Part shown: in pieces, positions 3,717 to 44,164 of the stretch
Numbering within the stretch: position 1 is the stretch's first letter
How the letters are laid out: every line of letters starts with the position of its first letter
NCBI RefSeq assembly: GCF_000949475.1
Contig: NZ_JRHC01000001.1
Location: 1,116,001 to 1,180,000, forward strand
Source: Draconibacterium sediminis
Lineage (GTDB): Bacteria > Bacteroidota > Bacteroidia > Bacteroidales > Prolixibacteraceae
Reading direction: 5' to 3'
DNA: 64,000 nt
Translations under genes and position numbers: made by a program
The notes under the pieces: model-generated
Told to the model about the DNA's origin: nothing
Database searches by the model: none
Seen by the model: the letters and a program-made list of their open reading frames with translations, nothing else

Positions 3717-3749
3717 CTCGTCACTCGTCACTCGTCACTCGTCACTCAA
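3717..3749. repeat. Heptanucleotide tandem repeat (TCACTCG)
   Basis: Between hydG and aspA the 7-mer TCACTCG is repeated about four times in perfect tandem and then degenerates (CAACGCTCGTGGCTCG). It is non-coding in the chosen annotation because aspA starts at 3677. A second, unrelated heptamer array is at 40877-40911. Confidence 0.85.
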
Positions 3750-3770: not shown

Positions 3771-5162
3771 TTAACAATAAACATCGTCGCGTCCGGCTTC
3801 TACACGATTTACCAGTTTTTCAGCTCGTTGTTTTGCTATGCCGCTCATTCCTGCAATGGTTTCACGAATTAGCTGGTCGCCAATTTCACGTGTTTCCGAC
3901 GATGCATAATTTTGCAAATATTCTTTAAAAGAACTAAGCCCGTTAGGGGCACAGTGCAAACGAATGTCGCCCGGTTTTGCCAGGTCCATAAAATCCTGTC
4001 CTGTTCTACCCATGCGGTAACAGGCTGTGCAAAAAGAAGGAATATAACCCATTGATGCCACATCGCGAATTACTTCATCCAGCGGACGGTGATCGCCAAG
4101 ACTAAACTGGCCTGAGATTTCATTGGCTTCTTCATAACCTCCCGGATTGGTTTTGCTTCCCGCTGAGATTTGGCTCACTCCCAACGCAAAAGTATCGCGG
4201 CGCATTTTGGCGGTTTCGCGTGTCGACATGATTATACCGGTGTAAGGAACCGCCAAACGAAGAATGGCTACGATTTTTCGGAAATCGATATCCGATACCG
4301 GGAATGGCGGGTGCGATGCCATATCGCTGTTGGTTGCCGGCTCCATACGCGGAACACTGATGGTGTGCGGGCCAACTCCAAATTTATCTTCCAGCTCGAA
4401 AATATGCTGCATCATCGCCATTATCTCAAAACGATAGTCGAAAAGGCCAAACAATACGCCAATTCCCACGTCGTCGATTCCGGCTTCCATGGCGCGGTGC
4501 AATGCCCAAACACGCCAGTTGTAATCGCGTTTTTTTCCGCCCACATGAACCTTTTGGTAGGTTTCGCGGTGGTACGTTTCCTGGAAGATCTGATAGGTGC
4601 CAATACCTTCCGCTTTTAGTTGTTTGAATTCGTCAACAGCGAGCGGAGCTACGTTAATATTCACACGGCGTATTTCTCCGTGCTCATTTTTAACGCTGTA
4701 CACGCTTCGAATCGACTCCAATACATAATCAAATCCTTTTTTCGGATACGACTCTCCGGCAACAAGCAGTACTCGTTTGTGTCCCTGGTTGATGAGCACT
4801 TCTGTTTCGCGAGCAATGTGTTCCTGCGATAGTGCATGGCGGTCGATTTCCTTATTCGTTGCCCTGAAAGCGCAGTACAAACATTCGTTCGCGCACAGGT
4901 TTGAAATGTAAAGTGGCACAAACAACACCAGTCGTTTGCCATAAATGGTTTCTTTAACGGTGTTGGCCGTGTTAAAAAGTTCGCCCAGCATTTCCGGATC
5001 GCTGATTGAAGTTAAAACCGCTACATCAGCAAGGTTTAAACCTTTCATTTCGGCCGCCTTGGCAAGTACTTCCTTTAATTGTGCCGGTTCGGGATTTTTG
5101 TTTTGCTCCAGTGTTTCCCAAACTTTGGTTTCGTTGATAAAATCGGCAGGTACGTTGTACAT
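3771..5162 (-). CDS. hydG: [FeFe]-hydrogenase H-cluster maturase HydG (radical SAM tyrosine lyase)
   Basis: Radical SAM enzyme that cleaves tyrosine to supply the CO and CN ligands, as an Fe(CO)2(CN) synthon, for the hydrogenase H-cluster. The radical SAM motif is C90-x3-C94-x2-C97 (CANECLYC). The C-terminal auxiliary cluster motif CTACYRMGRTG gives C378-x2-C381-x22-C404, which separates HydG from the related thiamine enzyme ThiH. The 463-residue length is typical. It is followed by aspA and preceded at 34 bp by a TM1266-type regulator on the same strand, with hydE divergent. Confident assignment. Confidence 0.97.
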   Translation of the reverse strand: MYNVPADFINETKVWETLEQNKNPEPAQLKEVLAKAAEMKGLNLADVAVLTSISDPEMLGELFNTANTVKETIYGKRLVLFVPLYISNLCANECLYCAFRATNKEIDRHALSQEHIARETEVLINQGHKRVLLVAGESYPKKGFDYVLESIRSVYSVKNEHGEIRRVNINVAPLAVDEFKQLKAEGIGTYQIFQETYHRETYQKVHVGGKKRDYNWRVWALHRAMEAGIDDVGIGVLFGLFDYRFEIMAMMQHIFELEDKFGVGPHTISVPRMEPATNSDMASHPPFPVSDIDFRKIVAILRLAVPYTGIIMSTRETAKMRRDTFALGVSQISAGSKTNPGGYEEANEISGQFSLGDHRPLDEVIRDVASMGYIPSFCTACYRMGRTGQDFMDLAKPGDIRLHCAPNGLSSFKEYLQNYASSETREIGDQLIRETIAGMSGIAKQRAEKLVNRVEAGRDDVYC

Positions 5163-40876: not shown

Positions 40877-40911
40877 AATATCCAATATCCAATATCCAAT
40901 ATCCAATATCC
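40877..40911. repeat. Heptanucleotide tandem repeat (AATATCC) x5
   Basis: Five perfect AATATCC units followed by diverged units (AATGACC, GATGACC, AATAAG). Non-coding, between GH36 and the methyltransferase. A decayed relative seems to follow the methyltransferase at 41668-41700 (TGGTCACTTGTCAATAGTCA). Confidence 0.88.
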
Positions 40912-41037
40912 AATGACCGATGACCAATAAGTGATTTGAAGGAGCATGAACATGCTAAATATCAATTCCCATTGGTTGAGAATCCCCATGATAATTATTA
41001 TTTTGCGGGCAATTCTTCCCGGGCAAATGAATAGTAA

Positions 41038-41667
41038 ATGAGAACGATTATGGACCGAAAAAAGCATTGGGAAGATATCTATCAGAGTAAGAACACCGCG
41101 GAGGTGAGCTGGTTTCAGTCTTCACCTACAACATCGCTACAATTTGTTAAGGAGTTTAAATTACCGCTGTCGGCCCGGATTATTGATGTGGGAGGTGGCG
41201 ATAGTTTTATGGTAGATCGTTTATTGGAAATGGGCTACCGCAACATTACCGTTCTTGATATCTCGGAAACAGCCATTAAAAAAGCACAGCAACGTTTGGG
41301 CGAAAAAGCCGATACGGTAAAGTGGATTGTTGCCGACGCTGCAGGATTTCAACCTACCGAAACCTACGATTTCTGGCACGACAGGGCAGCTTTTCATTTC
41401 CTGACCGAAAAACAGGAGATCAGTAATTATGTCGATACTATTAGCTCGTATGTAAAGCCGGGTGGTTACCTGGTTTTGGGAACCTTCTCGGAACAAGGCC
41501 CCACAAAATGCAGCGGCATAGAAATAAAACAGTATTCGGAGAATACGATGACAAGCTTGCTAACGGATTTCTTTAATAAAATCAGGTGTATTTCAGTCGA
41601 TCATAAAACACCATTTAATACGCTGCAGAACTTTATTTTTTGCAGCTTCAGGCGCTTGGCGGTATAA
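41038..41667 (+). CDS. Class I SAM-dependent methyltransferase
   Basis: 209-residue cytoplasmic methyltransferase. SAM-binding motif I is RIIDVGGGDSF at about 48-58; the acidic end of strand 2 is VLDIS; motif near 100 is IVADAAGF; and FLTEKQEISNYVDTISSYVKPGGYLVLGTF is the usual post-core helix and strand. The N-terminus HWEDIYQSKNTAEVSWFQ matches a widespread small methyltransferase type of unknown substrate (thiopurine/tellurite-methyltransferase-like group). An internal ATG at 41050 could be the true start. Confidence 0.88.
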   Translation: MRTIMDRKKHWEDIYQSKNTAEVSWFQSSPTTSLQFVKEFKLPLSARIIDVGGGDSFMVDRLLEMGYRNITVLDISETAIKKAQQRLGEKADTVKWIVADAAGFQPTETYDFWHDRAAFHFLTEKQEISNYVDTISSYVKPGGYLVLGTFSEQGPTKCSGIEIKQYSENTMTSLLTDFFNKIRCISVDHKTPFNTLQNFIFCSFRRLAV

Positions 41668-41754
41668 GACATTGGTCACTTGTCAATAGTCATTGGCTGA
41701 TTGCTACTGCATCCCCGAAGTTTCAGAATACACCAGCATGGGGGATTGGTTTTA

Positions 41755-41893
41755 TTTTTTGCACCGTGGCTTCAGCCCGGTGACAAAATTGTAATATTAT
41801 AAAAGGGCTTTAGCCTTTAAAACTAAATTAAAGGCTAAAGCCTGTTTTCAATTCTCAATCCGAAATCACCGCCCTAAAGGACGGTGCAAAAAA
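41755..41893. repeat. 139-bp palindromic element with perfect 13-bp terminal inverted repeats
   Basis: TTTTTTGCACCGT at 41755-41767 is exactly inverted at 41881-41893. Inside, AAAGGGCTTTAGCCTTTAA (about 41802-41820) pairs with TTAAAGGCTAAAGCCT (41828-41843). The whole can fold into a long cruciform. Size and structure resemble a MITE or a REP-type unit moved by a transposase encoded elsewhere. No ORF inside. Confidence 0.8.
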
Positions 41894-41970
41894 GCACATT
41901 CAAACTGGATCGGATCCCTATCACAAACGCATTTGTTTGTATGCTCACCAAGTTAATGCCCCTGCAACAT

Positions 41971-42265
41971 GATTTTGGAACCACCAGTTGAGCCGAGGGC
42001 ATAAGAAAAAACACGATTGATACCCACTTCACGAACCTGATGGCGCTATAAAATGAGTTTTATACCCACTTCTGTCATCTGGGGGCGTAAAAAAACGCGT
42101 TTGGAACCGACTTCTGTTGCCTGAGGATGAAAAAAAATGCGTTTGAAAGCTTCCCCAGCTGCTGAGGAAGCGATAAAACCTGTTTGAACCCAACTTCTGT
42201 TACCTGGGGAAGCAAAAAAATACGTTTGAAACCAACTTTCGTCACCTGAGGGAGCTTTAAAATCA
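41971..42265. repeat. Degenerate tandem array, seven units of 42 bp
   Basis: Units start at 41971, 42015, 42057, 42099, 42141, 42182 and 42224 (lengths 44, 42, 42, 42, 41, 42, 42). Each opens with GTTTGAAACC-like sequence, has a CACTTCTGT-like centre and CCTGAGG-like block, and ends in an A-tract of 4-8 bases. An additional eroded unit may precede (from 41935). No full ORF: plus-strand frames are stopped; one minus frame is open for about 60 codons but lacks a start. It is not a CRISPR array because there are no unique spacers. Confidence 0.85.
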
Positions 42266-42314
42266 GTTAGTTACGGGTTTTGAAGAATGCAGAAACTTCG
42301 AAAAACCGCGTGGA

Positions 42315-42392
42315 GCGGGAGTTTGGGATTAAAACCCCGGTTTTGCTTGCTGCTTAACCCCGGGCTTAAGCCTGGGGTTAGTGAACTCCCGC
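42315..42392. repeat. Nested palindromic unit
   Basis: Outer arms GCGGGAGTT (42315-42323) and AACTCCCGC (42384-42392) enclose a near-perfect palindrome around GGGCTTAAGCC (42354-42380, TAACCCC / GGGGTTA). Immediately after lies GGGCTTTAGCCC, the same core as in the element at 41755-41893. No gene in 42393-42528. Confidence 0.7.
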
Positions 42393-42528
42393 CTGTAAAT
42401 GGGCTTTAGCCCTTACTTTTGTATTCCCCTACTTTTCGCCAAAGCCATATTGTTTTTGTTAAACAGAGTAGTAACTTTAAACAAAAAAGAATCAAGCCTT
42501 TGAGTACGTATCCTGAAATATAAGATTT

Positions 42529-42632
42529 ACTCCGCTCACGCCGATTTGCAATAGGTGTGCAATTCTACAGAATTGAAATGAACTTATCAGCCTTTGACTG
42601 AGGTACGGATTATAAATCCGCACCAGCGTAGG
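42529..42632 (+). repeat. Family C structured repeat, copy 1
   Basis: Begins ACTCCGCTCACGCCGATTTG and ends ATCCGCACCAGCGTAGG, 17 bp before the first lipoprotein gene. Shortest (104 bp) of three copies; the internal CCTGCGGTA segment is missing. Ends are imperfect inverted repeats of each other (CTCCGCT..GCCGA versus TCCGCACCAGCGGAG in copies 2 and 3). Confidence 0.85.
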
Positions 42633-42649
42633 TAATTTCGAACTAGAAA

Positions 42650-43327
42650 ATGAAGAGGAATTTAATAATAGTAGTTTTTATAATATTTGGCTCATGTGCT
42701 AATAAAGAATCGGTTCTGAGTTTAGACTATGAGATTGCTTCAAATATTATCAAACAAAATAGTTTTCAAGATTCGGGTATCGTAATATTAGAGGCAAAAC
42801 AAGGAATATTTGCTTATTGGGACTCTCCGACAGATACAACTACTATCCTATATTCTGGGATTTCAATTGGGCAAATAAATATGCCCTCAGACAGTTTGAA
42901 AGGATTTTGGTTAAATCTATATGACTTTCAAGAAGCTCCTGGACTTTTTGCTATAACGAGTAATAGGCAAAATATTTCCATCAATGGTATTCCTATATTC
43001 CCAAATAATGAATTAGAATATTATTTAATAGAATCTGACTCAGTAAATGTCTTCACTTTTGATTGGGAAAAATTAGGAAAGATAGGAGTAAAACAAATAT
43101 GCTCCTTTTCAGAACCAATGATAAATGAGAGAGAAAAAACAGGTTATGTTGGATATCAAGTATATTCAAGAAATAATTTTGGAGTTAATGTGGCACGTTT
43201 TGATTATTCTAAGGCCATGATTATATCAGAGTTTAAAAAAATGAATTTTGATTTATTAGACCTTAGCTATCAATCCTCAGAAGGAATTTTAAAAGAACTT
43301 GAACCAAATAGAATGGTTGTAAAATGA
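42650..43327 (+). CDS. Unknown lipoprotein, AT-rich accessory gene A
   Basis: 225-residue product with signal peptide and lipobox (IIFGSC, Cys16). No domain recognised; the mature part is mixed alpha/beta with many Ile, Asn and Ser and motifs such as EFKKMNFDLLDLSYQSS near the end. Codon use is clearly more A/T-rich than the glycosidase genes nearby, consistent with recent acquisition. It is bounded by family C repeats on both sides (copy 1 ends 17 bp before the ATG, copy 2 starts 13 bp after the stop). Confidence 0.75.
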   Translation: MKRNLIIVVFIIFGSCANKESVLSLDYEIASNIIKQNSFQDSGIVILEAKQGIFAYWDSPTDTTTILYSGISIGQINMPSDSLKGFWLNLYDFQEAPGLFAITSNRQNISINGIPIFPNNELEYYLIESDSVNVFTFDWEKLGKIGVKQICSFSEPMINEREKTGYVGYQVYSRNNFGVNVARFDYSKAMIISEFKKMNFDLLDLSYQSSEGILKELEPNRMVVK

Positions 43328-43340
43328 AAAACTGTACACA

Positions 43341-43462
43341 ATCCCGCTCGCGCCGATTTGCAATCGGTGTGTCTTCGACAGAATTGAAGAAAACTTATCA
43401 GTCTGTGGCTGAGCTACGGATTACACCTGCCTGCGGTAGGCAGTAATTCGCACCAGCGGAGG
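43341..43462 (+). repeat. Family C structured repeat, copy 2
   Basis: ATCCCGCTCGCGCCGATTTG, CAATCGGTGTGTCTTCGACA, an internal TGCCTGCGGTAGGCAG hairpin, and ATTCGCACCAGCGGAGG at the end. It fills most of the 167-bp gap between the two lipoprotein genes. Confidence 0.88.
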
Positions 43463-43494: not shown

Positions 43495-44022
43495 ATGAAA
43501 AGAAACGTATTGATCGGATTAATATTTTGTTCTTGTATTTCATGTACCTATCAGTCACAGAAAAAGGCTATTTCTGAAGTTGTTGAATCTTCTGATAATT
43601 TAGGTATTAATGATTTCGAGGATTGGATTTTAGAGGTTCATTATCCAATGATGGAAGGTTGGAATTATATTGAGCTGTCTAAAACAAAAGGAGATACTCT
43701 TATTGTTCTTAAAAGCACTTATAAAAAAACAGATGATAAGTTACATTTTGCTTCTTCAAAATTAGATTATACCATTATTGAAGGTCAATACAAAAAGAGA
43801 ATAATACTTCAAAGTGTTTTAGATACATTATATATTTACAAGTATCCAATGGAAAATCCGAATGAGAAGTTCTTTTATAAAGGGAAATATACATATCAAT
43901 ATGATTATTCACTGCTTAATAAGGAGCAACAAAAGTATTATCTACTTCACAAAGATTCCCTTGATGAACTTGGAGGAAATGATCTTCCCTTATTACCAAT
44001 TCATGACGAAAATGGTCAGTGA
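43495..44022 (+). CDS. Unknown lipoprotein, AT-rich accessory gene B
   Basis: 175-residue product starting MKRNVLIGLIFCSCISCTYQ; a lipobox-like CSCISC suggests Cys17 as the lipidated residue. No known domain. The mature part has DWILEVHYPMMEGWNYIELSK and a YTIIEGQYKKRIILQSVLDTLYIYKYP stretch resembling small beta-barrel or lipocalin-like proteins, but that is weak. The N-terminus MKRN(L/V)LI is like accessory gene A, while the rest is different. AT-rich, flanked by family C repeats. Confidence 0.75.
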   Translation: MKRNVLIGLIFCSCISCTYQSQKKAISEVVESSDNLGINDFEDWILEVHYPMMEGWNYIELSKTKGDTLIVLKSTYKKTDDKLHFASSKLDYTIIEGQYKKRIILQSVLDTLYIYKYPMENPNEKFFYKGKYTYQYDYSLLNKEQQKYYLLHKDSLDELGGNDLPLLPIHDENGQ

Positions 44023-44043: not shown

Positions 44044-44164
44044 ACTCCGCTCGCGCCGATTTGTAATCGGTGTGTCTTCGATAGAATTGAAATGAACTTA
44101 TCAGCCTATGGCTGAGGTACGGATTACATCTGCCTGCGGTAAGCAGGAATCCGCACCAGCGGAG
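44044..44164 (+). repeat. Family C structured repeat, copy 3
   Basis: ACTCCGCTCGCGCCGATTTG, TAATCGGTGTGTCTTCGATA, GAATTGAAATGAACTTATCA, GCC.ATGGCTGAGGTACGGAT, TGCCTGCGGTAAGCAGG, ATCCGCACCAGCGGAG. It lies between lipoprotein B and the convergent helicase gene, with perfect CTCCGCT / AGCGGAG ends. Confidence 0.88.

Follow-up and report, generated by a model that had tools for sequence, protein, structure and literature searches.

Sequence comparison places an array of 42-bp tandem repeats in Draconibacterium sediminis, a marine bacterium, at the head of a platform from which an integrase gene has been deleted; arrays that head other such platforms keep a near-constant spacing while their units change. 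The window is the whole stretch of 64,000 nucleotides that was analysed. What can be read from it and its relatives is the order of the elements, the integrase remnant, a sharp cargo boundary in sister platforms and the presence of an array at half of the promoters. We infer that proteins would bind the array in helical phase and act on the nearby promoter. Our favoured explanation, to which we give somewhat better than an even chance, is that a gene-capture platform of integron-like kind begins, on its upstream side, with the array, which would carry phased putative protein-binding sites acting on the promoter. Such a platform would run in the order array, end motif, promoter, integrase start, attI-like site and variable cargo. 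The features of the window platform are as follows.

41963–42255, plus strand: tandem array in which a degenerate unit is followed by six clear ones, all of 42 bp save one of 41 (Tandem Repeats Finder, unit profile, two-unit model)
42131–42171, plus strand: type-2 unit of 41 bp with the near-perfect palindrome GCTTCCCCAGCTGCTGAGGAAGC (unit profile)
42263–42273, plus strand: right-end motif TCAGTTAGTTA, common to arrays with dissimilar units (motif count)
42353–42420, no strand: REP-like palindromic DNA between array and promoter, common to other platforms (sequence comparison)
42450–42479, plus strand: promoter of Bacteroidota type, TTG ... TAACTTTA, conserved over 12 aligned platforms (alignment)
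42500–42523, plus strand: remnant of the integrase gene start, TTG AGT ACG TAT CCT GAA ATA TAA, read as MSTYPEI-stop (comparison with nine intact loci)
42528–42628, no strand: repeat of about 100–118 bp in place of the attI-like site of sister platforms (comparison with sister platforms)
42650–43327, plus strand: variable cargo gene 1, whose 225-aa product resembles a lipoprotein by eye and matches nothing in Pfam (open reading frame list, Pfam)
43495–44022, plus strand: variable cargo gene 2, whose 175-aa product likewise resembles a lipoprotein by eye and matches nothing in Pfam (open reading frame list, Pfam)

The array and its sequence families

Tandem Repeats Finder reported a period-42 array at 42006–42255 (6.0 copies, 65% matches, 1% indels), the only row of that period among 38 in the window. 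A unit profile resolved six clear units starting at 42005, 42047, 42089, 42131, 42172 and 42214, with spacings of 42, 42, 42, 41 and 42 in order. The seventh, degenerate unit (about 41963–42004) was covered by a two-unit model (E 3.2e-5), whose match lies at genome positions 1157969–1158042, that is, window 41969–42042. An earlier note on this DNA had described seven units near 42 bp, each with an A-tract, in about 1 kb of non-coding DNA, and this description holds: the units fill 41963–42255 with a single 41-bp spacing, a run of at least four A occurs in all six clear units, and the list of open reading frames of at least 60 aa has no entry within 41667–42650, leaving 983 bp between the flanking frames.

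The window array is one of five related arrays in its own genome, three of the others being found at E ≤3.3e-40 and the fifth, a degenerate place, by model. Matches to the window type of array are present in 10 of 61 sampled genomes, 10 of 37 genomes of the genus and 12 of 140 genomes of the family; one of these 12 (G134) has no array, its 36-bp match (L084) being a single unit-like stretch. In another genus, one genome (G151) has three arrays that share the core of the window array and differ in the second half of the unit. BLAST sorted the arrays into clusters of 15, 15, 4 and 2 plus two singletons, one of them doubtful; the window array belongs to the cluster called family A. By this measure there are four or more sequence families, with no similarity detectable between them. 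Two or more families occur in 6 of 13 genomes, with up to three in one genome and two in that of the window. At the site in G009 that is orthologous to the window's (L087, reverse strand 4288–4962), a 42-bp array of dissimilar, family-B units replaces the window type, while its left end and right-end motif are as at the window's site; this array also has a 168-bp higher-order repeat. Because families of dissimilar units keep the same period, what is conserved is the spacing and not the A-tract. Descent of the families from a single ancestor, with divergence beyond recognition, is possible and would leave this interpretation unchanged. Phage and plasmid collections yielded no match and one exact pattern occurred in 0 viral contigs, so spread by phages or plasmids was set aside. 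A pattern match in a mycoplasma record (L068) had no array around it and was taken as chance.

Promoter, integrase remnant and cargo

The window's site lies between an alpha-galactosidase-like and a DEAD-box helicase-like gene, both named by eye. Here the window and three other genomes (G004, G034 and G007) carry an array followed by four different gene sets. G024 has the promoter and genes at this site and no array. G030 has no galactosidase-like gene; its methyltransferase and helicase genes are separated by about 170 bp, and array, promoter and cargo are all absent. Rightward of the array, the first open reading frame of 130 aa or more runs on the same strand as the array at 17 of 21 loci, the exceptions being L048, L060, L062 and L064, where it lies on the opposite strand.

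The promoter sequence TTG ... TAACTTTA matches the Bacteroidota promoter consensus. A model of the promoter plus the gene start had 82 matches in 16 of the 37 genus genomes; it was derived from 12 array-bearing loci, which may bias it toward such platforms. Among the 70 matches in fetched stretches, which were the ones scanned for periodicity, a 42-bp signal (z ≥3) stood upstream of 35 and downstream of none, and other periods of 39–45 bp reached z ≥3 at 2 of 70. For promoters that had not been fetched for a window-type array, the fraction with a 42-bp array was 21 of 54. A looser lag criterion flagged 52 of 77 regions, some of them doubtful, against 0 of 70 controls, and the z ≥3 criterion was preferred. 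The end motif (TCAGnnAGTTA, near variants allowed), which was drawn up after inspection of the arrays, was found at 29 of 35 array-bearing promoters, at 7 of the 35 others and in 4 of 213 pieces of 300 bp taken from the window; in 29 platforms it lies 41–258 bp from the promoter. In another genus, a weak promoter match in G149 is preceded, at about 1.4 kb, by a 42-bp array whose unit is of a further kind, and a weak match in G156 has no 42-bp array.

Some promoter matches stand directly 5′ of a tyrosine-recombinase gene, and the nine intact genes that were read encode 373–393 aa. The conserved leader turned out to be the start of this same gene. The window copy has seven codons and a stop that match intact starts such as MNTRPQIKLE; in the window platform the integrase gene is reduced to its first codons. 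Many platforms among those listed likewise have about 7–8 integrase codons and then DNA that is found past the integrase stop at intact loci. L118 keeps both ends of the gene, including the last codons, and its middle is gone, which indicates an internal deletion.

Residues R230, K255, H319, R322, H345 and Y354 are invariant in 20 aligned recombinase sequences, and we take them to be the catalytic tyrosine-recombinase residues. A structural model of the recombinase (mean pLDDT 84.7, pTM 0.56) has the Vibrio integron integrase 2a3v as its nearest fold, followed by XerA. About 100 residues precede the SAM-like domain; of these, 6–72 are modelled as a small strand-helix domain, with low confidence when modelled by itself. 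The cut-off of the integron-integrase profile TIGR02249 (265 bits) was reached in 0 of the 37 genus genomes: three recombinases scored 193.6, 216.4 and 210.6 bits, and the best matches covered profile positions 6–181 and 238–315. With NF040815 ('site-specific tyrosine recombinase/integron integrase', cut-off 220), two passed at 223.5 and 223 and the third scored 209.

Arrays with a period that is a multiple of 21 bp (z ≥3) accompany four of the nine intact integrase loci; at one of these four (L137) the array lies 1.1 kb away, behind a gene. Upstream periodicity was scanned at 30 loci, one of them that of the window's own genome, and among the 29 best-matching loci from outside the genus a 21- or 42-bp array was found at two, both in genus g56 and with other DNA in between. 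One locus of that genus (L149) has a 42-bp array with alternating 21-bp halves upstream of the recombinase; between the two stands a short gene that looks HTH-like by eye. Relatives of the recombinase at E 1e-70 occur in 89 of 295 genomes of the class Bacteroidia, mostly with one match each and with one in the window's genome, so capture sites of this kind may be widely overlooked.

At the attI-like site, sister platforms have a sharp cargo boundary. The orthologous platforms L047 and L053 differ by one mismatch over the first 190 bases from the promoter, and their cargo then diverges exactly past CAGTAGTT, that is, right after GTT. The platforms of two classes were examined with anchors that themselves exclude GTT; a GTT within 15 bases of the anchor was found in 14 of 15 in the first class and in 12 of 14 in the second, the chance of a GTT in a 14-base window piece being 0.244; 25 of these 26 lie exactly 8 bases beyond the anchor, and cargo is divergent after them. 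In L090, the sole miss of the first class, the script had picked a later chance anchor. Divergence after GTT is the trace that insertion at an attI site would be expected to leave. The window platform itself appears worn, since another repeat occupies the expected attI-like site; further copies of this 100–118-bp repeat at 43344–43461 and 44047–44164 mean that three copies flank the two cargo genes, and relatives of it occur in G004 and G002. A search of 47 intergenic cargo segments for attC-like complementary AAC/GTT ends gave five, no excess over the 6.0 expected, and of the two attC candidates neither that in L087 (z 0.08) nor that in L050 (z −0.48) folds better than shuffled sequence.

The missed TIGR02249 cut-off and the lack of an attC excess make the platform, as judged from its sequence, integron-like and not a proven integron. 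Like integrons it has an integrase gene, an attI-like site after that gene, cargo on the same strand, an upstream promoter and a recombinase whose nearest fold is 2a3v, and the sequence comparison points to exchange at GTT, as at attI. It differs in that the window copy of the integrase is only seven codons and a stop, that the recombinase falls below TIGR02249 and matches it in two stretches, that no attC excess was found and that a phased array lies upstream. Passages of a paper on Treponema integrons (PMC3607928) describe an integrase transcribed toward attI, the orientation found here. In the passages of PMC9024848 that define it, a CALIN is a cluster of at least two attC sites with no integrase; the window platform is likewise a cargo platform bereft of its integrase, but CALINs are defined by attC, and here there is no attC excess while the integrase promoter and first codons remain. 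According to passages of the same paper, IntegronFinder 2.0 found hardly any complete integrons in Bacteroidota, only In0 elements being recorded before, and then one in Salinibacter. Searches of the open-access literature, judged by their listings, brought up neither arrays of this sort nor the platform.

The two window cargo genes had no relative among the open reading frames of 21 compared loci. Ten cargo proteins from six loci, picked by size and position, were scanned: ThsB, ThsA and ThsB stand side by side (Thoeris; L059:5288–7756) in an array-headed platform, and the others comprised a bSEFIR protein, three type IIG enzymes (two of full length, one in two pieces), one protein with an HEPN match just under the Pfam cut-off and one matchless in both libraries. 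Cargo next to the arrays includes anti-phage genes. A stray repeat becomes a marker of gene-capture sites in Bacteroidota. RAYT-like genes (by eye) occur in some cargo, and at L052:8118–12019 a type IIG restriction gene is split in two with a RAYT-like transposase gene (by eye) in between.

Fixed spacing and changing units

Across 21 loci, from which two opposite-strand matches with scores below 20 (L056 and L063) were left out, adjacent units are spaced 42 bp in 76 of 95 cases and 41 bp in 19. The 41-bp spacings follow a type-2 unit, one half of which is palindromic, in 18 of the 19 cases by the script's pattern and in the last by eye. With a looser threshold, 32 loci gave 105 spacings of 42 bp and 27 of 41 bp, and nothing else within 38–46 bp; two of the 41-bp spacings fall outside type 2 as the script defines it. 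Ten comparisons of array pairs at the same or related sites, which share members and are not independent, showed 403 substitutions in the arrays and gaps of 40–42, 84 or 1 bp only, against 803 substitutions and 24 gaps of 1–32 bp in the flanks. The proposal of the earlier note that this is an old array with its spacing under constraint, acting as DNA, is supported by these spacings and gap sizes, and copies elsewhere do keep the 42-bp period.

The variable half of the unit recurs as a few types across arrays, a pattern that separates them from CRISPR arrays with identical repeats and unique spacers. Mean unit scores, with type 2 left out, fall from 55.1 at the promoter end to 39.2 at the far end (Spearman −0.47), which suggests that newer or selected units are probably on the promoter side. 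Scores of arrays with a promoter (48.0, 70 units) and without one (47.5, 26 units) do not differ.

On our favoured explanation the array would act as DNA, its putative protein-binding sites all facing the same side of the helix: 42 bp corresponds to four helical turns, and the 21-bp arrays at several intact integrases would correspond to two. Its likeliest role would be to control or shield the promoter, formerly that of the integrase and now serving the captured genes. Iteron and operator arrays with two- or four-turn spacing are likewise helix-phased direct repeats near a promoter; here the spacing is kept over families without detectable similarity, and binding is putative. BIME and REP clusters are likewise intergenic, with a mosaic of unit types and REP-like palindromes; the units here are mostly non-palindromic direct repeats at one fixed spacing. 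Counting against our explanation are the half of the promoters that have no array, G024 with promoter and cargo and no array, seven array loci that have no such promoter, the rarity of arrays at non-genus integrases (2 of 29), the L137 array 1.1 kb off behind a gene, and the fact that unit palindromes reach significance in only 8 of the 15 arrays of family B and in a single one of family C (L118).

A bolder proposal, which we put forward tentatively and think possible rather than probable, takes spacing as the only conserved property: units of 42 (or 21) bp with exchangeable sequence would form a scaffold in helical phase that controls the integrase and cargo promoter of an unrecognised Bacteroidota integron-like system capturing defence genes. 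It raises the question of whether spacing alone, with the unit sequence free, can be what is conserved in a DNA element.

Alternative readings of the array

The array could instead be a passenger minisatellite, in which unequal recombination of whole units is all that keeps the 42 bp and the platform tolerates or attracts it. Several of the gaps between compared arrays span roughly one or two units, the G009 array has its 168-bp higher-order repeat, units decay leftwards from the promoter end and half of the promoters do without an array, all as this reading would have it. What makes it rather doubtful in our judgement is that families without detectable similarity still share the period and the end motif, that the ten comparisons, for all their shared members, contain no small gaps within the arrays except of 1 bp, and that no array lies downstream of the same 70 promoters.

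Accessory (arm-type) integrase sites, serving capture or excision rather than transcription, would be in keeping with the presence of the arrays beside an integrase or its remnant and with the roughly 100 residues, including a small modelled strand-helix domain, ahead of the SAM-like domain. One attI-like cluster also goes with family B, which heads 7 of its 8 members; these account for only 7 of the 15 family-B arrays. At intact loci a 1.1-kb integrase gene separates the array from the attI-like site, and the window's genome has one such integrase at E 1e-70 for two array families. We regard this role as unlikely.

The earlier note had also proposed that phased A-tracts could curve the DNA, and a reading in which such predicted curvature is under selection seems to us very improbable. 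In the window the nine tracts are in helical phase, with 0 of 200 shuffles as good, and phasing also reaches significance in the three remaining arrays of family A and in several of family B (L098, L106, L116 and L129); all tested arrays of families A and B other than L103 gave p of 0.04 or less. It is absent from five tested arrays of families C and D (p 0.195–0.455) and from L103 (p 0.785), so that L118, L125, L132, L090, L122 and L103 keep the 42-bp period without phasing, and no run of five A occurs in the consensus units of family B or family D. A-tract phasing is therefore not kept across the families. As any tract in a 42-bp period becomes phased of itself, curvature is probably not what the arrays have in common, and it was rejected as a property shared across families.

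It is harder still to credit a set of RNA hairpins. Type-2 units are palindromic in sequence, and a scan with 500 permutations found palindromic units in the family-B and family-C arrays counted above; the window consensus pairs at 6 of 9 positions (p 0.452), type-1 units pair no better than their column composition, the two strands of the window array fold with weak z-scores (−1.44 and −2.03) and there was no covariation, so RNA structure was rejected.

Least credible of all is the 14-residue coding repeat, relic or live, that the earlier note had offered as an alternative: 42 bp is 14 codons, the minus strand does read as LPQVTEVGFK-like peptides, some arrays have open frames and all arrays together have 31 against 17.4 expected by column permutation (related arrays not being independent), but the recurrent 41-bp unit shifts the frame and the window array is closed in every frame, which excludes coding for the window array.

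Three smaller features lie near the array or elsewhere in the window. Just left of the array, 41755–41893 is an imperfect inverted repeat of about 140 bp with 70% identity. On the minus strand, 40827–40872 matches the Rfam family Acido-Lenti-1 with 31.9 bits, below the gathering score of 37. Perfect 7-bp tandem repeats occur at 3717–3747 (CTCGTCA) and 40877–40914 (AATATCC); both 21 and 42 are divisible by 7, which may be coincidence.
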